Shown: in pieces, positions 1,848 through 20,441 of the stretch | Numbering within the stretch: the first letter of the stretch is position 1 | How the letters are laid out: each line of letters starts with the position of its first letter | DNA from: Micavibrio sp. | Lineage (GTDB): Bacteria; Pseudomonadota; Alphaproteobacteria; Micavibrionales; Micavibrionaceae | Direction of reading: 5' to 3' | Assembly (NCBI GenBank): GCA_027051315.1 | Contig: JALTZE010000072.1 | Span: 1-20,593, forward strand | Length of the DNA: 20,593 nucleotides | Translations under genes and position numbers: made by a program | The notes under the pieces: generated by a model | The model's database searches: none | The model's input: the letters and a program-made list of their open reading frames with translations, nothing else | What the model was told of the DNA's origin: nothing

Positions 1848-3092
1848 TTATGGATATATATTGCAATTACCCGATGAATCGCAACAGCGTATATTTCCTA
1901 AATTTGAGAATCCATTTAGAAATTCTCCTGCTGGGCAGGTTGTAACAGGCACAACATCAAAAACACTTTGACAAACAACAGCATTATTTTCAACACCAAT
2001 AGCGGCCTCTCCATTAGGACATGTAGAGCCTGAACCACCTATAGCTTCAGGAAGTAGACAATCTTCTCCCGCAATATCACAATATCTATCCGAAACTATT
2101 GCATTTTCTGCATTTACATCACCAGTTACATGAAGTTTAACATTAGGTGTATTAGTTCCAACTCCAACATTTCCTATATTTGTATTATAAAGATAACTCT
2201 CACCAGGTGGGCTAAGAAATGACCTTAACCACAAAGATTGACTTTTGTTCGTAGTAAAAAATAATATATCATCATAATAATCATCACTATTTGCTCTTGA
2301 TTGTAATCCTTTTATAAATATAGCGTCATTTCTATCACAATTTTCCTTATCTTTTTCAATACCAGCAACATTAGGACCAGGTGGAGGAATAGGAGCAGGA
2401 CCAGGGTCTGGCCACATAGCAGAAGGAATTGTACATTCAGTATTAAATACTCCCTCTCTGGAATATCCGCCTGTTTGATTTTCTCCATGTGATATAATAA
2501 CCAAATGAGCAGAACCAACAGGTTCTACAACACTAACCCCAAATTCATCTTCAACCCTTATTGCTCCAAGCTCACTACTAACAGGGTCAACAATTGTTGC
2601 TGTGCTATCGGTCATATTCTCTGATACTGCATATGAAAGCCTCATATTATAACCATCAATAGCATTAACCATAGAAAACTTAACATCTTTTATTACTGAC
2701 ATAATAGTATTTACAGGAACCATACCCATCATAACTGGGTCATTAACTGTATCACCATCAGCATCACGGCTAAAAGATTGTGTACATGTTATATTTGCTG
2801 GTGTTCCTACACAATCTGGTGTAATAGCAGCCCTACATTGTTCTATTCCAAAATTAGGGTCGCTTATCGGTAATGTAGGGTCGGCAGGACATGGATAACG
2901 ACCACTAAGACCATAAAATTCAAAAAGTGCATTTTGTGTAATTTCTATATTATCTATAGTTTTTATATAATCAGCACGATATTTATGAGTAGCATATAAT
3001 GAAACAATAGCATACATCATGATAGAAGATATGACCATAACTATGGCTATCTCTATCAATGTAAAGCCCTTACTATTATATATTAATTTCAT
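1848..3092 (-). CDS. Prepilin-like multidomain surface protein, array gene 6 (last)
   Basis: A 414-residue protein of unrecognised specific function. A type IV prepilin leader ends at G9, followed by FTLIE (10-14, with Glu at mature position 5) and a hydrophobic helix to about 33. The pilin-like domain has YPCP (C68) and C86, likely a disulfide pair, then a DxDGD loop at 110-118 that resembles a calcium site, a DGY segment near 146-148, and SAHLVIISHGENQTGGY at 194-210. A proline-rich loop (228-239) interrupts this domain. A tail-fibre-like strand, VGVGTNTP...LHVTGDV, covers 309-326. A two-Cys module (C338, C345) follows, then two CPxG...C modules (358-374, 386-403). Ribosome binding site AGGA lies 5 nt upstream of ATG, and the start is 18 nt after the previous gene. 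Export and prepilin processing are expected; a role in adhesion is inference. Confidence 0.85.
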   Translation of the reverse strand: MKLIYNSKGFTLIEIAIVMVISSIMMYAIVSLYATHKYRADYIKTIDNIEITQNALFEFYGLSGRYPCPADPTLPISDPNFGIEQCRAAITPDCVGTPANITCTQSFSRDADGDTVNDPVMMGMVPVNTIMSVIKDVKFSMVNAIDGYNMRLSYAVSENMTDSTATIVDPVSSELGAIRVEDEFGVSVVEPVGSAHLVIISHGENQTGGYSREGVFNTECTIPSAMWPDPGPAPIPPPGPNVAGIEKDKENCDRNDAIFIKGLQSRANSDDYYDDILFFTTNKSQSLWLRSFLSPPGESYLYNTNIGNVGVGTNTPNVKLHVTGDVNAENAIVSDRYCDIAGEDCLLPEAIGGSGSTCPNGEAAIGVENNAVVCQSVFDVVPVTTCPAGEFLNGFSNLGNIRCCDSSGNCNIYP

Positions 3093-3110
3093 TTTTATCC
3101 TATTTTTCTT

Positions 3111-5543
3111 TTATGGCGATTGTAAAACACAACTACAATTATTCCATACATTATAACCTGTACCAGAGGAAATATTACATAAAGCTATTGCTGGTGTAGA
3201 ACAATTACATGCAGAACCAACCGTATCACCTAGCGCAAAATCATTAGGAGTAGGGGTGCCGGCAGGAGCTTCAACAAGACAGGAATAGCACTTATTTTCT
3301 ACAAGTTCCCAATCAGATTCTGGTTCCCATGAATTAGTTTCACAATTCCATTCTTTCTCATATTTTAGTCCAGGTCCACTAGTTGTGGGGTCTGGACAAG
3401 GTTTCCATTCATAATCTACAAGATTTTCGTCACAAACACATGCAGGAATATCATCAACAGGAATAGCAGGACCATATGAACCACCAGGAGGAATGGCACC
3501 ACAAGACCATGTCTGTGTAGTGATAGACTGAACAGCAGTTTCATTATGAGTTGCTCCTTCTGGGTCAGTCCAGCTAAAGCTATTTGTGGTTCCTACTGGA
3601 CATGAAGTCCTATTTATATTGATAGAATTTACAGGGCATGCACATGCACTTGTATCTGTATCAAAAGGAACAGCCGCAACAACAGCACCAGGACAGCTTA
3701 CATTATAAGAAAATACAACATTTCCTGTAACCGCAGAAGCAGGTAAACCATAATAACTAGCACAGCTTTGCGTAGTAGTAGTTATTCCAGGTACACATTC
3801 ACAAGAGCTTGTATCAGTATATATAGTTGTCCAGTTATGAGCAGTTTGTGGACAATTATGTTTTTGTATGGTGATTCTATTACCTGCAAATCCACTAGGA
3901 CAGGCATTTGTTACCATTCTGTAATCTTCTCGACACCAACAATCATGATTTGGTTGGTTATTATTTGGGTCTGCTCCTATACTATACGGAACAACAATTT
4001 CAGCAGGCCATGGCGATGAATTTGTAACAACATTTGTGGGAAAGGGGTCACTGGAGGTAGTATAACCACTTCTTTCGTGAGCTCTTCTATGGAAGAATTC
4101 TCCAGATACACATTCATATGCATCTCTTATCTGAGCAGTAGCAGCAGTAGAACCGCAAGATTCCATAACTCTTGCTTCTGCGTTAATGCTATCTATTATC
4201 CCATTAACATTGTTGAGAAATGTTGCAAGATTAGAATCATAAACTGCTGCAATCTGTGTTGCAAAATATGCTGCATCATAATTTGTAGCTATTCTATAAC
4301 ATTCACCTGAATAGGCAAGTTCATATCCTCCGCTATATGTAGCATTAAGAGTAGATGTCGTGCCACAACTATTAGTTACTGTAGTAGAGAAACACCCAGG
4401 AGGAGGAGAAACATCACATTTAATACTTCCATCAGCATTTATCCCAGATATAAAATTACCTTCTGGGCATGATACATATACTTCAGCAACACAAACAGGA
4501 GCACCATTTTGTATACCTGTCATAAATTCTCCTGCTGGACACGACATTCCTTCTCCACTTGCAATTTGTCCAGCTATAAGCCTTGAAGGAAAACAATCTG
4601 CTGCTGTACCAGTACCATCATATTCACATATTTGGGATGAAGTAACTAATCCTCCATCTGCTTCTAAAATTCCTTCATCAGGGTTTGCACCAAAAATTTC
4701 TACTTCTTCTGCAGATGTAAGATTAGTACTTGCATCTGCTCCAATTGCAATCATACTTCCTGTTCTTAAATGTATATTTTGCTGGTTCGTACTAGCTCTT
4801 TGCCACTCTTGTGGTTCAATAGAGCTAAAATATCTTAATTTATCATCAAAATTATTATTTTTTAGTGCCGCCCTATATGTAGCATCGGCATCACAATTTT
4901 CTCCTTCTGGGTCTGCAGCTGCAGGGCATCCTCCTGTTTGTGTTCCTGCTCTGTTATATCCACCTGTTTGATTTTCTCCATGACTTACAATAACAAAATG
5001 TGCAGCCCCTGCTGGCTCAACCACATTATCACCATTTTCATCAATTATAGATATACCCCCTTGCGCCCGATTATATGTCGAACTATCTGTAAGTACCTGA
5101 GTAACAGCATATGTTAATCTTTGTCCATATCCATCATATATATCATCTTCTTGGATATTCATTGAACGAAATGGTATTGTTCCCCTAAGCACATAATGAG
5201 GAGAAGGAAGAGTTCCAACCGTTCTTGAACTAATATCTGTACAAACTCCATTTGTACAAGTACCAACAGCAGAAATAGTACAATCTTCTCTACCATAATC
5301 GGCATCTCCTGCTACTGCATCATATGGTGCAGGGCATGGATACCTACCATATACAGATCTAAAACCTCCTAAGGCATTTAATGTTTTTGTTATTGCCCTA
5401 TCAGTTTGTTCTATTGCTTGCTCTTTCTTATATTGGTTATAATAATAAATTGCAACAACAGCTATTATACCTAGAACCACCATTGATATGGCTATTTCTA
5501 TCAAAGTAAAACCTTTTTGATTTTTATTTACGGTACTGTACAT
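3111..5543 (-). CDS. Prepilin-like protein with long Cys-rich repeat region, array gene 5
   Basis: An 810-residue secreted protein, specific function not recognised. The leader ends at G11, followed by FTLIE (12-16) and a helix to about 34. The pilin-like domain has YPCP (C70), C88, GTIPF (121-125), DGYG (137-140) and AAHFVIVSHGENQTGGY (180-196). The fibre-like strand is degenerate here (IAIGADAS, 265-272). The two-Cys module is at C306 and C317, and two CPxG...C modules are at 335-351 and 359-376. A unique stretch (about 377-530) contains a predicted helical segment near 420-460. The C-terminus (535-805) is a run of CxC-type Cys-rich repeats with CxC at 535, 581, 634, 702, 779 and 803. The start overlaps the upstream gene by 16 nt, with GGGAG 8 nt before ATG, which suggests translational coupling. 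Long disulfide-rich stalks or binding heads on a pilin anchor are the likely arrangement. Confidence 0.85.
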   Translation of the reverse strand: MYSTVNKNQKGFTLIEIAISMVVLGIIAVVAIYYYNQYKKEQAIEQTDRAITKTLNALGGFRSVYGRYPCPAPYDAVAGDADYGREDCTISAVGTCTNGVCTDISSRTVGTLPSPHYVLRGTIPFRSMNIQEDDIYDGYGQRLTYAVTQVLTDSSTYNRAQGGISIIDENGDNVVEPAGAAHFVIVSHGENQTGGYNRAGTQTGGCPAAADPEGENCDADATYRAALKNNNFDDKLRYFSSIEPQEWQRASTNQQNIHLRTGSMIAIGADASTNLTSAEEVEIFGANPDEGILEADGGLVTSSQICEYDGTGTAADCFPSRLIAGQIASGEGMSCPAGEFMTGIQNGAPVCVAEVYVSCPEGNFISGINADGSIKCDVSPPPGCFSTTVTNSCGTTSTLNATYSGGYELAYSGECYRIATNYDAAYFATQIAAVYDSNLATFLNNVNGIIDSINAEARVMESCGSTAATAQIRDAYECVSGEFFHRRAHERSGYTTSSDPFPTNVVTNSSPWPAEIVVPYSIGADPNNNQPNHDCWCREDYRMVTNACPSGFAGNRITIQKHNCPQTAHNWTTIYTDTSSCECVPGITTTTQSCASYYGLPASAVTGNVVFSYNVSCPGAVVAAVPFDTDTSACACPVNSININRTSCPVGTTNSFSWTDPEGATHNETAVQSITTQTWSCGAIPPGGSYGPAIPVDDIPACVCDENLVDYEWKPCPDPTTSGPGLKYEKEWNCETNSWEPESDWELVENKCYSCLVEAPAGTPTPNDFALGDTVGSACNCSTPAIALCNISSGTGYNVWNNCSCVLQSP

Positions 5544-6748
5544 ATAGGGTCTCCCGAAGCATTAAATCCTGTTACCAGCATACCAGTTGCATAACAATCA
5601 GCTGGATTATATATATTCATATCAAGTTGAAGCCTCTTGCCATCTACATCTATAAGCGTTCCACCAGCATCAACCGATGAAGCACAACCAACCTTACTAT
5701 TTGCAACTTCCATCATTGGTTGTTCTCCAAACATTATATCTGTATTGTCGCATCGCATTTCTGGTCTTGTACCTGTTATTAATTCTGGTTCAAAGCAATT
5801 ATTATTATTCTCATCACAAATATTGCTTGACATAATATTATTATCTACTCTTATATCACCCACCACATGTATTGATACTTGAGGATTTGTTGTTCCAATC
5901 CCTATTCTAGTAGCCAGAGTAATGATATCCGCATTATTAGTTAAGCTTGGAAACCATGTTGATATTGGTACTTGTGCTTGTTCTTCTGTTATATCATCAT
6001 AAAAACCAGCTCCTGCCACTTCGGAACGTGCATTCGGTATTGAAAGATTATTTGGATTAACTTCTAAAATAAACACACTATCAAAATCACAATTTTCGTT
6101 ATCAAATCCTTGAGCCATAGTTCCACATGGGGCAATAGGGATACCGTCTTTTCCATATCCTCCTCTTCCAGTTTCTCCTGTTGAGAATAATACAAAATCA
6201 GTTAAATTATCAACCACGGTTGGAACACGGTTAATATCAAGTGCCTGCGATGTTATAACACCATTATTATCAGAAAATCTGCTTGGGTCTGTTTTTACTT
6301 CTGTTACCACATAGATAATTTTATTATCCCAGCCATCAAGACTATCTTCTATATTTAGCTGTAAGGCAGCAAAAGGAACAGCACCAACAACAGCAGCAAT
6401 ATTAGGGTCAGCAGTTGTTCTACATATTCCATTAGTAGTAAACCATGTTGCAGAACTACATTGCGGAATAGCAGCAGCATTCACCCAGCTTTCTTCCTTA
6501 CCATAATTTGGATTTATTTCATTAAATGATAAATTTGCAGGTCTTGGATAAGCTCCCGTTAATCTATAATATTGATTTATCGCAGTTTCTATTTTTGCTA
6601 GATTCCCACTAGTATATCTTTGTCTTCTATCAGCATTTTCGGCTTGTGCCATTGCTAATATTCCAGCTATTATCAGCCCAGCAACAACCATTCCTATTGC
6701 TGTTTCAATAAGAGAGAATCCCTTGCTGCAGTAGATTCTACTACTCAT
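5528..6748 (-). CDS. Prepilin-like multidomain surface protein, array gene 4
   Basis: A 406-residue member of the array. The leader ends at G10, followed by FSLIE (11-15) and a helix to about 34. The pilin-like domain is the most diverged. The usual YPCP reads YPRP (R69), and the partner cysteine of the GxExC motif is Ser87, so both halves of the conserved pair are gone. GAVPF (122-126), a DGW segment and a loop FSTGETGRGGY (188-198) keep the shared layout. The fibre-like strand is clear: IGIGTTNP...IHVVGDI at 282-299. The two-Cys module is at C311 and C318, and the C-terminal CPxG modules are degenerate, the last one running from C385 to C403. Ribosome binding site AGGAG lies 7 nt upstream of ATG; the start is 30 nt after the previous gene. 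Processing by a prepilin peptidase is expected; function is unknown. Confidence 0.84.
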   Translation of the reverse strand: MSSRIYCSKGFSLIETAIGMVVAGLIIAGILAMAQAENADRRQRYTSGNLAKIETAINQYYRLTGAYPRPANLSFNEINPNYGKEESWVNAAAIPQCSSATWFTTNGICRTTADPNIAAVVGAVPFAALQLNIEDSLDGWDNKIIYVVTEVKTDPSRFSDNNGVITSQALDINRVPTVVDNLTDFVLFSTGETGRGGYGKDGIPIAPCGTMAQGFDNENCDFDSVFILEVNPNNLSIPNARSEVAGAGFYDDITEEQAQVPISTWFPSLTNNADIITLATRIGIGTTNPQVSIHVVGDIRVDNNIMSSNICDENNNNCFEPELITGTRPEMRCDNTDIMFGEQPMMEVANSKVGCASSVDAGGTLIDVDGKRLQLDMNIYNPADCYATGMLVTGFNASGDPICTVP

Positions 6749-6778
6749 TACTTGCTCCTGAACAGATACATATTTTTC

Positions 6779-7999
6779 CTATTCTTTATAAGGGTCAACA
6801 CATATCAATCCTTTTGTATTTGAAATACCTTGCAAAAACAATCCCTCATCACAATTGGTTTTTTCAATATTAAATTCTACAAGTTTACACATAACCTTCC
6901 CTTCAGAAATTCCATACATAGCCTGACCAGATGGACATTTCATACTTGCAACTTCTCCTCCTATAAGCTCGGCATCAATACAGTATCCTGAACTATCACA
7001 AATTTCTGTTGTTCTTACTTTTTCTGCTTTTAAACCTGAGGTCGGTAAGGGGTCACCATTTTCATCAAATCTTTGTGAGCCATCTATATGTAATTTAGCA
7101 GAAGGATTTCTAATACCAACGCCAACTGAACCATCATTACTATTCGTAATTTTATCAGTAGATACTTGGTCCCATAATGTAATATCTTGGGTTATATAAA
7201 AATTTGCAAAATCATCATTAGGTTGCCTACTATTGTCTTGTCTAATGCCTAGTAAAAATAATCCGTCATCATCGCAATTTTCCCTTTCATTTATATCGGC
7301 AGGTATCATTTCATTAGTATCACCATCGCCATCTGAATCATCAGTATCTTGAATTAATAAAACATTACAATCAGCACTACGATATCTTTTACCATCTAAT
7401 GTATATGCTCCTATGCCATTTTGCCCATGTGAAAGTAAAAGCATATGCGCAGTATTTTCAGGCTCTACTACCGTTCTGTTATTTTCATCCCAGATACCTA
7501 TGGCACCATATTCTGAATTATAAGTAGCTGCATCTGTTAGATTCTTTGTAACAACATATGTTATTTGCCTTCCCCAACCATCAGTTATAGCATCTATACC
7601 AAGCTTACTATACACATTTCTATCAGAAATAGTTTTAAATGGGATAGTTCCTATTAATATACTATCCGCAAATCCGTCCCCATCAGCATCACGAATATTT
7701 CCACTCTTATCTGGAGTAAGATTGGCAACGGCAGGTAAAGTACAATCCTCCACCCCGTAATTTGCATCGCTAGGTGCAAGTGTTGGATTGGCAGGACAAG
7801 GATAACGCCATGACAAAGACCTAAACTCTCTTATTGCATTTCTAGCATAATCAATATGGTCTTTTGTTTCGGTCTTACTAACTTCATAAGAATAGTTTTT
7901 ATAACCAAATCCTATTCCCATTACTATCAGGGCAAATATAAACGAAACAAGACACATTTCTACTAAGGTAAAACCTTTACAGTTTTTTTTACAATTCAT
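6779..7999 (-). CDS. Prepilin-like multidomain surface protein, array gene 3
   Basis: A 406-residue array member. The leader ends at G9, followed by FTLVE (10-14) and an aromatic-rich helix to about 33. The pilin-like domain carries YPCP (C68), C86, a DADGDGFAD loop at 104-112 and a second acidic DSDGDGD loop at 221-227. Both resemble calcium-binding loops of the thrombospondin type 3/dockerin kind. GTIPF, DGWG and HMLLLSHGQNGIGAY (185-199) follow the common layout. The fibre-like strand is VGVGIRNP...LHIDGS (292-308), so the usual GIGT is altered to GVGI. The two-Cys module is at C334 and C340, and the CPxG...C modules are at 355-371 and 383-400. Ribosome binding site GAGGA lies 9 nt before ATG and the start is 22 nt after the previous gene. 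Secreted and probably pilin-processed; function inferred only. Confidence 0.85.
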   Translation of the reverse strand: MNCKKNCKGFTLVEMCLVSFIFALIVMGIGFGYKNYSYEVSKTETKDHIDYARNAIREFRSLSWRYPCPANPTLAPSDANYGVEDCTLPAVANLTPDKSGNIRDADGDGFADSILIGTIPFKTISDRNVYSKLGIDAITDGWGRQITYVVTKNLTDAATYNSEYGAIGIWDENNRTVVEPENTAHMLLLSHGQNGIGAYTLDGKRYRSADCNVLLIQDTDDSDGDGDTNEMIPADINERENCDDDGLFLLGIRQDNSRQPNDDFANFYITQDITLWDQVSTDKITNSNDGSVGVGIRNPSAKLHIDGSQRFDENGDPLPTSGLKAEKVRTTEICDSSGYCIDAELIGGEVASMKCPSGQAMYGISEGKVMCKLVEFNIEKTNCDEGLFLQGISNTKGLICVDPYKE

Positions 8000-8021
8000 A
8001 ATAATATGTCCTCGTCATTTA

Positions 8022-10580
8022 TTAATCACCATTGACCAAAGTACAAATACAAGAGTCATAATTGTTAAATTTACCCATAGCTCTTCCAAAACATCCAGTA
8101 AATCCGTAGTCTTTATCCTTATTACATTCACCACCAATCTCATAAGGAGATATAGGAGTATCTTCTATAGTATTGTTACTGCTTTCTACAGCCACCCATT
8201 CATATCTTGGAGCTCTGCATGTATCAATAATTTCACCTTCTATATCATATTTCCCGTTTGTACAATTTAGGTACATTCTTGTCGTTACCTGACCAAGAGT
8301 ATGTGAAGGGTCAGAACAGCCGCTATATTTTTCAATATATTTCGAATCATCACATTCACATGTATTATAATCAGGAACATAATTCTCAAATTGACCTGTT
8401 TCACAGTTCAATGTACCTGTTTCATAATATTTACCTGATATAACACCTGGACAGTCTGCATATGGTCTTGTATCAGTTTTTGCTGGGTCACATGCACACG
8501 TATTTACAGTTCTAGAATGTACATATTCTCCTGTCTCACAATCTAAAACTTCGTAATTTATAATTTTACCAGTATAATTTCCCAAAGGACAATTTTCTTC
8601 ACTAGCAACTCTTTCTTTACCATCAACACAATTACATGTATTAACTTCTTCACCATATGAAGTAGTTGGAATATTATCATCACCACAAGATACTATCAAA
8701 CTGTCATAATATCTTTCACCATCATAGTTTTTAGGGCATGGACCTGCATCTACAGGGGCAATATTATCAACATATCCCTCATTACATACACATTGATTAT
8801 CTACATATTCTGGAATAAGTGTATCTGTTTCACAATTATAATATGCTGGTGTGGTATATATTTTACCTCCAGGAACATAATATTCACCACAATTTTGTTC
8901 ATTTGTTTCAGGAATTGTTGTAGTACATTCACAATGACTTGAATCAAGTACAGAGCTTACTATACCTTCTTTATCATTCACACATGTTTGCGTAGTTTTA
9001 TATAGATTATATCCACTGTAATAATCAGGGCAATCATATACAATATTTGTTGTAGGAGATGTATATTCCTGACATTCACAAGTATCATAACTCAAATATT
9101 CAATTTTCTTAGGATTATAATAAGACCATCCATCTAAACAAGTATGAGTTTGTGTGAAATATGTATGCCCTTCATAATAATCACCAGGGTAGAAACTGCT
9201 GCATGTATTATGTTCTCGTTCCCTAGGTTCTTGTCCTGTACACCCGCATGCTCCTTTAGTGTAATATGATTTGCTCGTATCTCTTTTCCATTCCCCGTCA
9301 ACACATTTATATCTTTCTTGACGTTCTTTCATGGAATCGCCTTTATAATCAGTAGTATACGAATATACATATTGGGCAAAACCATCATCATGCTTATCAA
9401 GATGCACAACCTCATCACAAACCATTATATCAGTTGCTTCGCAAGGAGCAGGCGGAGCTGTATTACATACAGGTTTTCCATCTTCTATACCCTTCATGAT
9501 ATATCCATCTGGGCAACTTATTATAATTTCATCTTCACATACAGGCTTGGCATTTTTTATTCCTACCATATATTGTCCTTCAGGACATTTCATTCCTCCC
9601 GTACCTTCTTCTATACTTCCTGTAAATAGGCTAGGAGAAAAACAATCATCATCACTACCACCATTATTATTAAGACATATATCCTCAACAAAAACTTTCT
9701 CAGTTGCCCTTACATCACCAGCAACAGCTATCTTTTCACCAAATTCACCTGCTTTTGTACCTATACCCATTGTGCCACCTCCGACAATATCCATAGTTTT
9801 ATTGTCATAATCATATGCCCAAGTAGGTACATCACTTTGTTTAAAATAATATATATAATCATCATATCCGTTATTTCTATCATCACGGCTTGCAACCTGA
9901 AAGATAGCCTCATTTTCTAAATCACAATTTTCTCCATCAGTGGCAGCAATATTACAAGCTATTCTGCCACCAGCTGTAGTAAATGCTCCATTTCCGTCCT
10001 CACCATGGCTTATGATTACAAAATGAGCCGAACCTTCATCGCTCAAAGAAGAACGTCCACTTTCATTCACTATTTCTATTGCCCCACCTTTAGCAGAAAA
10101 CCCACCATCAGTGGCAAGTCTTTCCGTTACTATGTAACTAAAAGGATTACCATATCCATCAATTATATCTTCTTCATCCAGATTTAGCGTCTTGAATGGT
10201 AAAACACCCTCTCTAACTCTTTCTGGTACTCCTGAAAAGGCAAGAGCTGTTCTAGCTGGCGTACTTTGATAAATACATTGTCCATTATTACATGTACCTA
10301 CAGCTACTGTATTATCTGTACAATCTCCTTCATGGCCGTAATCTAAATCTCCTCTTTGTGCATTATAGGGTGAAGGGCATGGATATCTTCCATAAACAGC
10401 AAGAAAATTAGATATAGCCGATTCAATAGAGGCCTGATGCGATACAGTTTCTTTATATTGTCTATCTTTTTCATATATATTATACATCGAAAACATAGAA
10501 GCAAGCGCAATGCCCAATATTATAATTACTATGGACATTTCAATTAAGGTAAAACCTTTATTACTTCTGATGTACAACAT
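8022..10580 (-). CDS. Prepilin-like protein with seven CxC Cys-rich repeats, array gene 2
   Basis: The largest array member, 852 residues. The leader ends at G9, followed by FTLIE (10-14) and a helix to about 33. The pilin-like domain has YPCP (C68), a downstream Cys at 87, GVLPF (125-129), DGYG (141-144) and AHFVIISHGEDGNGAF (185-200). The fibre-like strand is MGIGTKAG...IAVAGDV (271-290). The two-Cys module is at C302 and C313. Two well-preserved CPxG modules lie at 332-348 and 356-372. The C-terminal half (about 445-790) is a tandem repeat array with CxC at 445, 501, 550, 597, 649, 695 and 741, a period of 46-56 residues, and further conserved Cys in each unit. It ends in a distinct tail with CIC at 846-848. 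AAGGAG lies 8 nt before ATG, and the start is 56 nt after array gene 1. Its size and regular cysteines suggest a long disulfide-stabilised stalk; the ligand is unknown. Confidence 0.86.
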   Translation of the reverse strand: MLYIRSNKGFTLIEMSIVIIILGIALASMFSMYNIYEKDRQYKETVSHQASIESAISNFLAVYGRYPCPSPYNAQRGDLDYGHEGDCTDNTVAVGTCNNGQCIYQSTPARTALAFSGVPERVREGVLPFKTLNLDEEDIIDGYGNPFSYIVTERLATDGGFSAKGGAIEIVNESGRSSLSDEGSAHFVIISHGEDGNGAFTTAGGRIACNIAATDGENCDLENEAIFQVASRDDRNNGYDDYIYYFKQSDVPTWAYDYDNKTMDIVGGGTMGIGTKAGEFGEKIAVAGDVRATEKVFVEDICLNNNGGSDDDCFSPSLFTGSIEEGTGGMKCPEGQYMVGIKNAKPVCEDEIIISCPDGYIMKGIEDGKPVCNTAPPAPCEATDIMVCDEVVHLDKHDDGFAQYVYSYTTDYKGDSMKERQERYKCVDGEWKRDTSKSYYTKGACGCTGQEPREREHNTCSSFYPGDYYEGHTYFTQTHTCLDGWSYYNPKKIEYLSYDTCECQEYTSPTTNIVYDCPDYYSGYNLYKTTQTCVNDKEGIVSSVLDSSHCECTTTIPETNEQNCGEYYVPGGKIYTTPAYYNCETDTLIPEYVDNQCVCNEGYVDNIAPVDAGPCPKNYDGERYYDSLIVSCGDDNIPTTSYGEEVNTCNCVDGKERVASEENCPLGNYTGKIINYEVLDCETGEYVHSRTVNTCACDPAKTDTRPYADCPGVISGKYYETGTLNCETGQFENYVPDYNTCECDDSKYIEKYSGCSDPSHTLGQVTTRMYLNCTNGKYDIEGEIIDTCRAPRYEWVAVESSNNTIEDTPISPYEIGGECNKDKDYGFTGCFGRAMGKFNNYDSCICTLVNGD

Positions 10581-10620
10581 ATCATTGCTCCTTAAAAATT
10601 TTTTAATTACTAATTTAAAA

Positions 10621-10639
10621 TAATAGATATTATCTATTA
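10621..10639. repeat. Perfect 9-bp inverted repeat between array genes 1 and 2
   Basis: TAATAGATA and its exact complement flank one base, overlapping the stop codon of array gene 1. The one-base spacer makes an RNA hairpin unlikely, so a protein-binding dyad is more plausible. In DNA this AT-rich, chance is a realistic explanation. Confidence 0.35.
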
Positions 10640-11773
10640 CTTAGGCGGTTCTTTACATATCACCTTACCTGAGCTGTTAATGCCAGCTACATATTTTCCC
10701 TCTTCACAGCTATTATTAACCAAGAATTCGTCATTTTTGATTACGCCTGCTAAGAATCCATTATCACAATCAACATCGTTATGCGCAATTGTAGTTGCAA
10801 AATTATTTCCATCATCACAATTCATGCCAGTAGTAGTTATTTTAGCTACATCAGTACATGTTACACCATCACCCAAATCTTCTTCGCAATATTCCCCTAC
10901 ATTTATATCACCATTTTCAATTTTTATATCACCATCTACATCAAGAGCAACTTGTGGAACATCATCTCCTATACTCACATATGAATATTGGCTTTCTAGA
11001 TTTCCTTCGGTATCCATATTCCAAGTTTCTGATGGTGTTGATACTCTGTATTTTACCATATCATCATATTTCATGGAAAAGCCGTTATTATCAACGGCTG
11101 TATCATTATCTACACGCATATATTCATCATCAACAAATATATCATCACCATCACAATTTTCTGAATCCCTAGGTGATGAAGGCAAAGCAGGGTCAGGACA
11201 TGCACCGATACTAATCCCTTCATCTGAATAAAAACCGCTAGCATTTTCGCCCGCAGCAACAATTATATAATCTATATCATTTTGCGTATTGTTATAAGCA
11301 GCTGTGGTATCAGGCTCATTACCCATAGCATCTTTATCATAGCCCTTTACAGTGATTTCTGAAGCACCTGATTTTGTGGCATAAATAAATCTATTCCCAT
11401 TTGAATCTACGGTAAGTTCTCTTGGTATTCCAAGAGTAATAAACGGTATCATTCCAGTGTGAATATTTCCGTTAAGCGTACCAGCACAATCAGAGATTCC
11501 TAAATTAGGGTCATTAAGAGGCAACGTCATATCTGCAGGGCAAGGATATCCAGCAGCAGATTTTTCATTACTTGCTGCACTATATCTATTGATAATAAAA
11601 TAATTATCTATAGCATTTGCTACACTTTCTTCATTAGAATATGTTTTTGCACCTTTTTCTTGAATTAACTCAATATTATATTGCCTAATAAAACCAGCCA
11701 TAAATATCCCAAACACCAATAACAAAATCATGGTATCTATGAGTGTTAGACCTTTTTCATCCGATAATTTCAT
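10637..11773 (-). CDS. Prepilin-like protein with atypical cleavage region (E5D), array gene 1
   Basis: The first gene of the array, 378 residues from the ATG at 11773. A GTG at 11785 is possible but would place GGGGA, the best ribosome binding site, inside the gene; the ATG also gives an 8-residue leader like those of its neighbours. The leader ends at G8 and is followed by LTLID (9-13), so mature position 1 is Leu and the usual Glu at position 5 is Asp. The pilin-like domain has YPCP (C78), C96, GMIPF and IIVAAGENASGFY (169-181, without the SHG motif). The fibre-like strand is degenerate (VSIGDDVP...LDVDGDI, 266-283). A late CxxG...C module covers 356-373. Position and substitution recall minor pilins that cap or initiate filaments, such as GspK; that is only an analogy. 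Confidence 0.82.
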   Translation of the reverse strand: MKLSDEKGLTLIDTMILLLVFGIFMAGFIRQYNIELIQEKGAKTYSNEESVANAIDNYFIINRYSAASNEKSAAGYPCPADMTLPLNDPNLGISDCAGTLNGNIHTGMIPFITLGIPRELTVDSNGNRFIYATKSGASEITVKGYDKDAMGNEPDTTAAYNNTQNDIDYIIVAAGENASGFYSDEGISIGACPDPALPSSPRDSENCDGDDIFVDDEYMRVDNDTAVDNNGFSMKYDDMVKYRVSTPSETWNMDTEGNLESQYSYVSIGDDVPQVALDVDGDIKIENGDINVGEYCEEDLGDGVTCTDVAKITTTGMNCDDGNNFATTIAHNDVDCDNGFLAGVIKNDEFLVNNSCEEGKYVAGINSSGKVICKEPPK

Positions 11774-18698: not shown

Positions 18699-19037
18699 TT
18701 ATTCTTTTTCAGAAATATATAAAATCCCGTCTGTTTCCGCACGTAAAGCAGCAATATGAGTAAAATGGGGGCTACCTGCATCTCCACCAAGTGCAACATC
18801 ATAATATACACCAGCTGGAAAATAATGGTCATTTGTTGTTGCTGTTACTGTGTTATCTCCAAATCTTATATATACAGGATTAGTGGCATATAGGATAATT
18901 ACCTTAATATCAGAGTCAAACGATATAGAATTTCTGGTAGAAATAGAACTAAATGTAATTGATTGTGCACCATCTGGTTTTAAACGTAGGGCAGGAATAA
19001 TATTATTATTAACATCTGTAGGAAGTAGAGTAGTCAT
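18699..19037 (-). CDS. Orphan protein resembling small phage virion proteins
   Basis: A 112-residue protein rich in beta strands, with no signal peptide or membrane segment. The central part contains the pattern ATNPVYIRFGDNTVTATTND (51-70), then FPAGVYYDV (73-81), HIAAL (94-98) and a final GILYISE. From memory, this FVRFGD...ATxxD...PAG...G-TLY-V order is shared by short proteins in tailed-phage and gene transfer agent structural clusters; their role is not established. No other phage gene is nearby. The start at 19037 is supported by AAGG about 8 nt upstream; an earlier ATG at 19100 would run through the leader hairpin. It has its own promoter and converges on recR. Confidence 0.7.
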   Translation of the reverse strand: MTTLLPTDVNNNIIPALRLKPDGAQSITFSSISTRNSISFDSDIKVIILYATNPVYIRFGDNTVTATTNDHYFPAGVYYDVALGGDAGSPHFTHIAALRAETDGILYISEKE

Positions 19038-19080
19038 TTTTATACCTTTCTTAGGAATTAATTTCTGGGAAGTAAAAAAC

Positions 19081-19114
19081 AAAAAATGCGCAAAGGACAA
19101 AATCCTTGCGCATT
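19081..19114 (-). terminator. Promoter-proximal terminator-like hairpin in the leader of the orphan gene
   Basis: On the minus strand AATGCGCAA (19114-19106) pairs with TTGCGCATT (19093-19085). Three further pairs follow beyond a bulged base, the loop is 5 nt, and two U-rich runs come immediately after. It begins within a few bases of the predicted transcription start, so it could attenuate the gene or produce a short RNA of about 45 nt. Confidence 0.65.
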
Positions 19115-19769: not shown

Positions 19770-20441
19770 TTATTCAGAGCTATCCTTTGATTTAGCAGCA
19801 CTACCCATGAAGTTAGAAAAATCAAATCCACTGCTTAAGGGGTCAGAATTATTATTATTATTTTCTTCTATACTTTCAGTTTGCGCTTGTGGATTATCCT
19901 TCCCAAGAGCTTCAAGACCTTTTTCTGATGCTTCTTGTAATTCCACATATGTGCAAAGACCAAGTTCAGCAGGGTGGCGTGCTTTTATATTAGCTATATC
20001 TGCGTGTGTTTTATCTCTTATAGATTGTATAGTTGGTTTTGTAGTTCCTATAAGCTTACAGATTTTTGCATCATTAATCTCAGGATGATTTTTAAGTATA
20101 TAGGCAATCGCATTTGGCTTGTCTCCACGTTTTGATATTGGAGTATATTTAGGACCTTTTGACCTTACTTTAACTTTAGGAAGGTCACTTTTCATCATAA
20201 TAAGACGTGCATTTTCGTCATTTTGACATCTTTCTATTTCTTCTTTGGTAAGTTCTTTATTTTCAATAGGATTTCTTCCCACTATACCTCTACCGATTTC
20301 TTCATCTGCAATTGCTTGCACTTCCAAAGCATCAAGCCCGCAAAATTCTGCAATTTGTTCAAAACTTAATGCAGTATTGTCAATAAGCCATACTGCAGTA
20401 GCTTTTGGCATTAATGGTTTATTATAATCAACTTGTGCCAT
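19770..20441 (-). CDS. trcR: Cell cycle transcriptional regulator TrcR (DUF1013)
   Basis: A 223-residue protein recognised as DUF1013/TrcR, an alphaproteobacterial family linked to the CtrA-controlled cell cycle. The conserved N-terminal block runs from PLMPKATAVWLIDNTALSFE (9-28) through FCGLDALEVQAIADEE (33-48) to GRNPI (55-59), and includes a helix-turn-helix-like segment (26-45). A second helix-turn-helix-like region (about 115-143) contains INDAKICKLIGTTKPTIQSI. The C-terminal 40 residues are low-complexity, with an Asn run. The family is reported to act with RNA polymerase; a direct role here is inferred from homology. AAGGAG lies about 8 nt before ATG. The 150-nt upstream region contains a GC-only palindrome. 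Confidence 0.88.
   Translation of the reverse strand: MAQVDYNKPLMPKATAVWLIDNTALSFEQIAEFCGLDALEVQAIADEEIGRGIVGRNPIENKELTKEEIERCQNDENARLIMMKSDLPKVKVRSKGPKYTPISKRGDKPNAIAYILKNHPEINDAKICKLIGTTKPTIQSIRDKTHADIANIKARHPAELGLCTYVELQEASEKGLEALGKDNPQAQTESIEENNNNNSDPLSSGFDFSNFMGSAAKSKDSSE

Follow-up and report, generated by a model that had tools for sequence, protein, structure and literature searches.

Two divergent three-gene sets of prepilin-type proteins in a Micavibrio genome as candidate heteromeric pilus tips

A six-gene array made up of two A-B-C cassettes

The stretch of DNA analyzed here, referred to as the window, comprises 20,593 nt and represents the whole of contig C72 (JALTZE010000072.1) in a draft genome of Micavibrio sp. 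(GCA_027051315.1; 1.70 Mb, 97% complete). It contains six consecutive open reading frames (ORFs), all located on the minus strand from position 11773 down to 1848 and coding for prepilin-like proteins of 378-852 aa, as stated in a preliminary description made from the sequence alone. The array was found to consist of two adjacent cassettes of three different genes, termed A, B and C (Table 1), and not of six equivalent duplicates. A common core of approximately 380 residues aligns across all six proteins with 35 invariant columns, which bears out the earlier observation that further modules follow the leader in the same order in each of them: an RYPCPA region, the motifs HGENxxGGY, ENCD and DD...W, a fibre loop and two C-P-x-G blocks. 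The genes are tightly spaced, with intergenic distances of 56, 22, 30, -16 and 18 nt in the order A1-B1-C1-A2-B2-C2. The good ribosome binding sites reported along with this spacing could be recognized in part: Shine-Dalgarno-like sequences, judged by eye, are clear at the starts at 10580, 7999, 6748 and 3092 and weaker at 11773 and 5543.

Table 1. Genes of the two cassettes, in the order of transcription.
Gene	Position	Strand	Protein (aa)	Features
A1	10637..11773	-	378	First gene of cassette 1; length counted from ATG; atypical leader (Asp at +5), PCPA pilin domain, fibre loop VSIGDDVPQVALDVDG
B1	8022..10580	-	852	Large gene of cassette 1; prepilin leader, shared core, tail of 476 aa (7.6% Cys, 8 CxC motifs)
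C1	6779..7999	-	406	Last gene of cassette 1; fibre loop VGVGIRNPSAKLHIDG
A2	5528..6748	-	406	First gene of cassette 2; fibre loop IGIGTTNPQVSIHVVG; 16-nt overlap with B2
B2	3111..5543	-	810	Large gene of cassette 2; Cys-rich tail of 430 aa (6.5% Cys, 6 CxC motifs)
C2	1848..3092	-	414	Last gene of cassette 2; fibre loop VGVGTNTPNVKLHVTG

The three-gene unit is widespread among relatives. A profile search across genomes, as proposed in the preliminary description, was carried out with the core and yielded matches in 54 of the 58 genomes from the order of Micavibrio-type alphaproteobacteria, with nearly the whole core covered in 34 of them, which excludes chance. Presence of the full cassette was read from the matches listed, with a match to at least position 350 of the 380 profile positions as the criterion, and was recorded for these 34 of 58 genomes, including that of the window. 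Genome G031 (match to position 340) and shorter loop-bearing sets were counted as non-carriers; one such set is found in the one-contig genome G021, where two members of a three-gene prepilin set carry the loop. Twenty loci were mapped from the 33 relatives with a full-length match, and 18 of these had A, B and C in a single copy each, on one strand, arranged as ABC (12 loci), ACB (three) or CAB (three), the remaining two being one ABBC and one AB locus. A second search yielded 39 named loci, many of them on the same contigs as the mapped ones. All three types were present in 30 (27 with one of each, three ABBC), and the other nine comprised four with A and B only, two of them at contig edges, and five with other related pilins. 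Overlap of the A and B genes was identified in 13 of the 17 relative loci in which A directly precedes B, with starts set mechanically. The labels A, B and C derive from a tree of 66 cores and from profiles built from the same loci. Among all mapped and named loci, two whole cassettes side by side were found in the window only. Among the named carriers of cassette genes are Micavibrio sp. DHS20C02, UBA6139, UBA2020, UBA5703, UBA7689 and TMED27. In a class-wide sample of 385 genomes, with at most four candidates scored per genome, whole-profile matches were confined to four genomes of the window's family, while five others matched the N-terminal part.

The genes flanking the array look ordinary. 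An ABC-F-type ATPase gene lies downstream, and a cytochrome c gene (Pfam) lies upstream together with, judged by look, a prephenate-dehydratase-like gene and FtsK. The GC content of the array (0.35-0.38) is within the range of four neighboring genes (0.33-0.38) and its GC content at third codon positions (0.15-0.21) is slightly below theirs (0.18-0.24); therefore, there is no clear sign of a recent arrival. A small ORF of 133 aa at 18699-19100, which showed no family match over the cut-off, adjoins a TrcR gene at 19770-20441.

The pilin head, the trimeric-fibre module and the B tail

A prepilin leader had initially been assigned to each of the six proteins. The Pfam N_methyl profile was matched by five of them (three over the cut-off and two just under it in the search of the window, all five over it in the search of the genome), whereas A1 showed no match and carries the atypical leader KG-LTLID. 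By pattern, Asp at +5 occurs in eight of 34 A proteins, A1 among them. In Pfam and NCBIfam, no known domain was found for the head or the Cys-rich tail, the matches being confined to the leader and to chance-level hits. Structure prediction, likewise suggested beforehand, was carried out for C2 and B2 with AlphaFold2 (AF2). The model of C2 exhibits a long alpha-1 helix (residues 12-63), with block values of the predicted local distance difference test (pLDDT) of 85-97 over residues 11-160, and that of B2 exhibits a helix (residues 14-65), a confident pilin head and a beta-rich tail of which most is confident as well. In these two of the six proteins, the head is thus predicted to be pilin-like, while the fibre module described below was not modelled with confidence. 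The best match in a fold search with C2 was the type IVb pilin CFA/III (E 0.056), followed by CofA and pseudopilins, with the mosaic adhesive trimer (MAT) fibres of Bdellovibrio at E values of about 3-5, all of which is suggestive only; for B2, the 50 matches listed were all unrelated proteins with TM values of at most 0.14. With the leader profile in five of six proteins, helix and head in the two that were modelled, and a prepilin peptidase and an assembly machine encoded in the genome, the proteins belong to the type IV (pre)pilin superfamily.

Downstream of the pilin part, the A and C proteins carry the loop VGIGTxxPxxxLDVxG of trimeric fibres, within a module of the consensus IxNxNxGNVGIGTxxPxxxLDVxGxI. 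A profile of this module was built from 28 A and C segments (25 of 53 listed and three of the window's four) and compared with PDB sequences. The best match was the Bdellovibrio MAT fibre Bd2133 (8ond, 7.8e-13), followed by the further MAT-type entries 8oml (3.4e-7), 8ojn (1.3e-6), 8ol4 (2.2e-4) and 8on4 (3.4e-4), of which 8oml and 8on4 give identical alignments and may represent a single protein. Next came MyRF (0.031 and 0.15), which is also given as a match of the MAT motif in the study of these fibres (PMC10769870), and then unrelated chains (0.52 and 0.83). In Bd3182, the capping loops are located at R656-H669 and F752-H765 (PMC10769870). The stretches matched in the 8ojn alignments, RVGVGTTAPTSALH and FFGINTAAPAYNIH, comprise 14 residues each, lie 96 residues apart and end in the residues named in that study. 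As end residues, length and spacing all equal those of the Bd3182 loops, the module corresponds to the MAT capping loop. In addition, at a threshold of E<=0.1, 23 of the 28 segments matched a phage tail-fibre PHROG, the best of them with 7e-6.

The module is the least confident part of the B2 model (block pLDDT of about 29-49, residues 241-310) and is also weak in C2 (about 47-59, residues 281-340), as expected for a piece that would fold only as a trimer. A natural fusion was identified in genome G001. The gene at L134:1063-4086 codes for 1007 aa, in which a prepilin leader and the same head are combined with four loops and a chaperone-protease domain, Peptidase_S74 (residues 848-902). The sequence SDARLK at the start of this domain fits the motif SDxxxK given for MAT fibres (PMC10769870). 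Through this fusion, which is located on a different contig (C2) from the cassette of the same genome (C55), prepilin heads are seen to be joined to S74 fibres in this family. Further long prepilins, with two loops each, are encoded at L135 (1020 aa) and L147 (633 aa). No Peptidase_S74 domain was found in the six window proteins, nor was there a match in their own genome. Another long protein, of 1406 aa (L136:938-5158; G017, contig C19), has a prepilin leader, a partial pilin head and a C-terminal pretoxin HINT domain (Pfam PT-HINT, 4e-13).

A tail of approximately 70-570 residues is present in B proteins only. It contains 6-9% Cys in 34 of 36 copies, the other two being cut by contig ends. 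Among 304 B pairs with a core identity of more than 38%, which are not independent of each other, 282 had a lower identity in the tail than in the core (mean 35% vs. 42%). Such fast-changing tails look like binding surfaces. A particular pattern was observed at L081, which lies on the same contig as L065: its tandem B genes (5778-7949 and 7959-10130) share 909 identical nt in the anchor, with no change in codons 61-300, while the tails show a synonymous divergence (dS) of 0.95 and a non-synonymous divergence (dN) of 0.19 before returning to near identity at the end. The same slope, though weaker, was found at L088 (dS from 0.57 to 1.73), and no clear slope at L098, where synonymous sites are saturated. 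The L081 pattern is consistent with gene conversion acting on the anchor while the tips diverge; the exact repeat of 909 nt could also be an effect of mis-assembly.

Pilus machinery and origin of the cassettes

None of the window ORFs was seen to encode a pilus motor, a secretin or a prepilin peptidase, in line with the preliminary description, which had proposed that the rest of the genome be checked for them. All were found there: PilB- and PilC-type genes on contig C27, a prepilin peptidase and two PilT-type ATPases on C177, and a secretin on C144. PilT over the family cut-off was present in all 34 cassette genomes vs. 16 of the 24 others (p=0.00038). The respective numbers were 26 of 34 vs. 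12 of 24 for a second, C5-type ATPase, with G019 and G055, which possess only contig-edge fragments of it, counted as without, and 34 of 34 vs. 21 of 24 for Flp pilins. Counting G031 as a carrier changes these numbers to 35/35 for PilT, 26/35 for the C5 type and 34/35 for Flp. PilY1 (PF05567) was detected in two of the 58 genomes, one with and one without the cassette, and was not found in the 33 cassette-bearing relatives. From these distributions, the PilT pilus is the best candidate carrier of the cassette proteins. The C5 ATPase system was considered as an obligatory partner and rejected, as it was not found in eight of the 34 cassette genomes.

The matches to T2SSE in the window's own genome comprise the PilB type, the C5 ATPase, two of PilT type, a DotB-like gene and one weak match, and those to T2SSF are restricted to C27 and C5. 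No TadA- or TadB/C-type gene was seen among these matches in the draft, which is incomplete; a short Flp gene is present. Elsewhere in this genome, contig C5 (L022:1468-7641) carries a second GspE/GspF-type set with two small prepilin-like proteins without GFTLIE, and its ATPase occurs in 38 of the 58 genomes at identities of at least 64%. On C17 (L017:1-2328), DotD-, DotC- and DotB-like genes in a row suggest a type IVB secretion system, and many relatives contain a comparably strong match to the PilT family. Contig C8 (L023:268-7000) carries PilA-like pilins, genes that resemble FimT/PilV/PilW/PilX by look, and a PilY1 of 1191 aa. The names DotB/DotC/DotD, PilM/N/O, PilU and FimT/PilV/PilW/PilX are presumptive, having been assigned by the look of the sequences.

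According to the preliminary description, the array looked like a tandemly duplicated set, a view not supported by the phylogenetic analyses. In a tree of 66 cores, from which proteins scoring 100 bits or less were left out, the B proteins form a well-supported group across the order, and many A and C sub-groups are firm. The same five relatives accompany A2, B2 and C2 in their respective supported groups, and B1 and C1 are placed elsewhere. Sisterhood was rejected for B1 and B2 (p=0.0013), for C1 and C2 (p=0.026) and for the whole cassettes (p=3.6e-5; concatenated A+B+C, LG+G4). The concatenated tree of 34 cassettes (19 of the 20 mapped loci, L066 being without C, 13 chosen named loci and the two window cassettes) places cassette 2 in one group of ten (SH-aLRT 100) and cassette 1 in another group of ten (92). 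The exact position of cassette 1 is unsure because of its unusual letter make-up and the long branch of A1. At L071 and L074, genes labelled C by profile lie on the A side of the 66-core tree, and the A gene of L061 lies beside B. As judged from these trees, the two window cassettes are old and come from different lineages, and their adjacency may go back either to an ancient duplication with loss elsewhere or to transfer of a second cassette beside the first. A single recent tandem amplification of one family was ruled out by the trees and by the tests that rejected sisterhood.

Candidate pilus tips and comparison with known systems

On balance, we lean towards the reading that the array represents two anciently diverged A-B-C cassettes of type IV pilus minor pilins that form heteromeric tips with exchangeable ends. 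In this model, the prepilin peptidase would cleave the leaders of A, B and C, and one copy of each would assemble into a heterotrimer by way of the alpha-1 helices and the fibre module, as suggested by the gene counts, the gene overlaps and the role of the module as a trimer elsewhere. The heterotrimer would take the place of a PilY1-type tip, priming and capping the PilB/PilC/PilT pilus and leaving the B tail as the exposed binding end, and PilT retraction would pull the cell to a tip-held target, in this order plausibly a prey cell. Two cassettes might then provide one cell with two different tips. Tip location, stoichiometry and prey binding are what we infer here, prey being the presumed target because the known members of the order are predators (PMC3189940). 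The earlier idea of filament-borne multidomain surface proteins is supported in that the proteins are of prepilin type and probably filament-borne, with assembly and retraction machinery in the genome, and they stand as candidates for the tip components that had been envisaged. The trimeric-fibre loop, the grouping of the genes in threes and the association with PilT had escaped that first description.

A number of observations weigh against this reading. The ABBC loci depart from a 1:1:1 gene set, the loop is degenerate in most B copies, and neither C2 nor B2 had a match at E<=0.001 in the fold searches. Low confidence in the module may equally indicate disorder, and C2 is also weak at residues 221-250. 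In the core tree, A and C as whole groups are weakly supported (74/53 and 81/88, respectively), and in family f3 the A side holds the C genes as well as the A genes assigned by profile, which leaves the A/C split in this family unsure. The heterotrimer draws on gene counts and on the behavior of the module elsewhere, and predation by the window's own organism, represented by a draft genome, would be a further assumption. The association with PilT falls to p=0.013 without family f7. The sole PilY1 among the 34 carriers belongs to the window's own genome, where it is located on C8, apart from the cassettes; its pilus may have an ordinary PilY1 tip if C8 is genuine, but this contig may be foreign to the draft, as PilY1 occurs in so few of the genomes. 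Finally, tad-type genes lie near nine loci of seven genomes (L066, L068, L070, L090, L093, L097, L098, L111 and L114), as determined by clustering and Pfam searches with six representative neighbors, four of which were pilus-type or CpaE-like, and Flp pilins accompany the cassette in every carrier.

These last two points would be explained if the cassettes served a Tad (Flp) pilus instead of the PilT pilus, as tips equivalent to TadE/F/G or to the Kil tips of Myxococcus. Three co-encoded minor pilins, one of them large and with a tail, also correspond to the Kil tip layout (PMC12075869). Flp pilins are, however, nearly as common in genomes without the cassette, and the own genome yielded the short Flp gene without a TadA- or TadB/C-type partner in the incomplete draft, so that we regard a Tad tip as unlikely. 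An alternative of similar standing concerns the oligomeric state: A, B and C might each form their own homotrimer, so that three kinds of adhesin would be displayed on the shaft or at the tip. In the solved MAT fibre tip, a single chain forms a symmetric trimer (PMC10769870), unlike the heterotrimer proposed here, and the S74-fused prepilin of L134 is expected to be homotrimeric, too. The mostly 1:1:1 gene set and the frequent A/B overlap, in contrast, suggest one complex, and the degenerate B loop speaks against a B homotrimer, making separate homotrimers improbable.

That the proteins serve a type II-like secretion system as pseudopilins or cargo docks, presenting an effector instead of mediating adhesion, appears very unlikely. 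Their N-terminal profile matches do include GspG and GspH, though below the cut-off, and a tip pilin of another system is described to dock a secreted factor (PMC12075869). The fast-changing tails nevertheless resemble binding surfaces. The association of the cassette with PilT points in the same direction, as secretion pseudopili work without PilT. A store of variants switched by recombination in the manner of a shufflon or of pilE/pilS would agree with the constant anchor and variable tail of the L081 tandem B genes, but is highly improbable and, inside the window, ruled out by the divergence of B1 and B2 (39% identity in the core, 25% in the tail) and by the presence of just two inverted repeat pairs, both imperfect (70% and 79% complementary), the more so as no recombinase was recognized by look among the window ORFs and no Shufflon_N match was obtained, whereas R64-type PilV shufflons possess a Shufflon_N domain, a recombinase and a set of inverted repeats.

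To our knowledge, the molecular basis by which epibiotic predators such as Micavibrio choose and hold their prey is not known. A conserved A-B-C cassette that joins prepilins to the MAT fibre module provides a defined, deletable candidate for prey attachment, and comparing its constant anchor and variable tail between genomes could help to study target range. The order to which Micavibrio belongs includes epibiotic predators, and the genome of M. aeruginosavorus encodes type IV pili and eight prepilin-type proteins in three operons, for which a role in adhesion was suggested (PMC3189940). A bolder and rather doubtful extension of the preferred heteromeric-tip reading is that Micavibrio-type epibiotic predators possess a retractable type IV pilus capped by a heterotrimeric tail-fibre head, in which A, B and C are zipped together by the phage-fibre module and prey specificity resides on the exchangeable B tail. 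If true, a pilus would have taken over phage-fibre architecture for prey recognition, and the organism of the window would hold two such heads from different lineages. Among the papers listed by a literature search, none was seen to describe such a cassette, which is weak evidence of absence as subscription papers are poorly covered.

Among known systems, the tip of type IVa pili consists of minor pilins and PilY1, and these minor pilins cap a PilT-driven pilus, as proposed here; the difference lies in PilY1, which is missing from the matches of 33 of the 34 cassette genomes. In TcpB and CofB, minor pilins of type IVb pili, the C-terminal part trimerizes, but each is encoded by a single gene and forms a homotrimer, and both were absent from the matches of the PDB sequence search. 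The MAT fibres of Bdellovibrio (PDB 8ond, 8ojn and 8ol4, among others) share with the cassette proteins the capping-loop module, diverse C-terminal ends and a predatory host, but are described as starting with a signal peptide, followed by a conserved N-terminal domain rich in beta structure (PMC10769870), where the cassette proteins have a prepilin leader and a pilin head. Two unrelated predator lineages thus appear to share one trimer module, Bdellovibrio on surface fibres and Micavibrio in pilus-borne form. The PilA-PilB-PilC tip of the Streptococcus sanguinis type IV pilus is likewise made of heterotrimeric minor pilins with adhesive domains, its ends being a lectin and a VWA domain, as opposed to the Cys-rich, beta-rich tail and fibre module of the cassette (PMC12075869). 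The Kil system (KilL-KilM-KilN) of the Myxococcus xanthus Tad pilus also comprises three clustered minor-pilin genes, one of them with a C-terminal domain as extremity; it resembles the array further in that several alternative clusters exist in one genome, that the host is a predator and that the tips were modelled as heterotrimers, and predation by single Kil tips varies with the prey (PMC12075869). Micavibrio is not mentioned in the accessible text of that study. Compared by description only, the cassette differs from Kil in being linked to PilT and not clearly to Tad, and in the phage-fibre capping loop of its A and C proteins. Since their defining features are lacking or unsettled here, we do not assign the array to MAT, Kil or PilY1 tips. 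The best reading is that it would work like a minor-pilin tip of the Kil or S. sanguinis type, but with a MAT/tail-fibre module.

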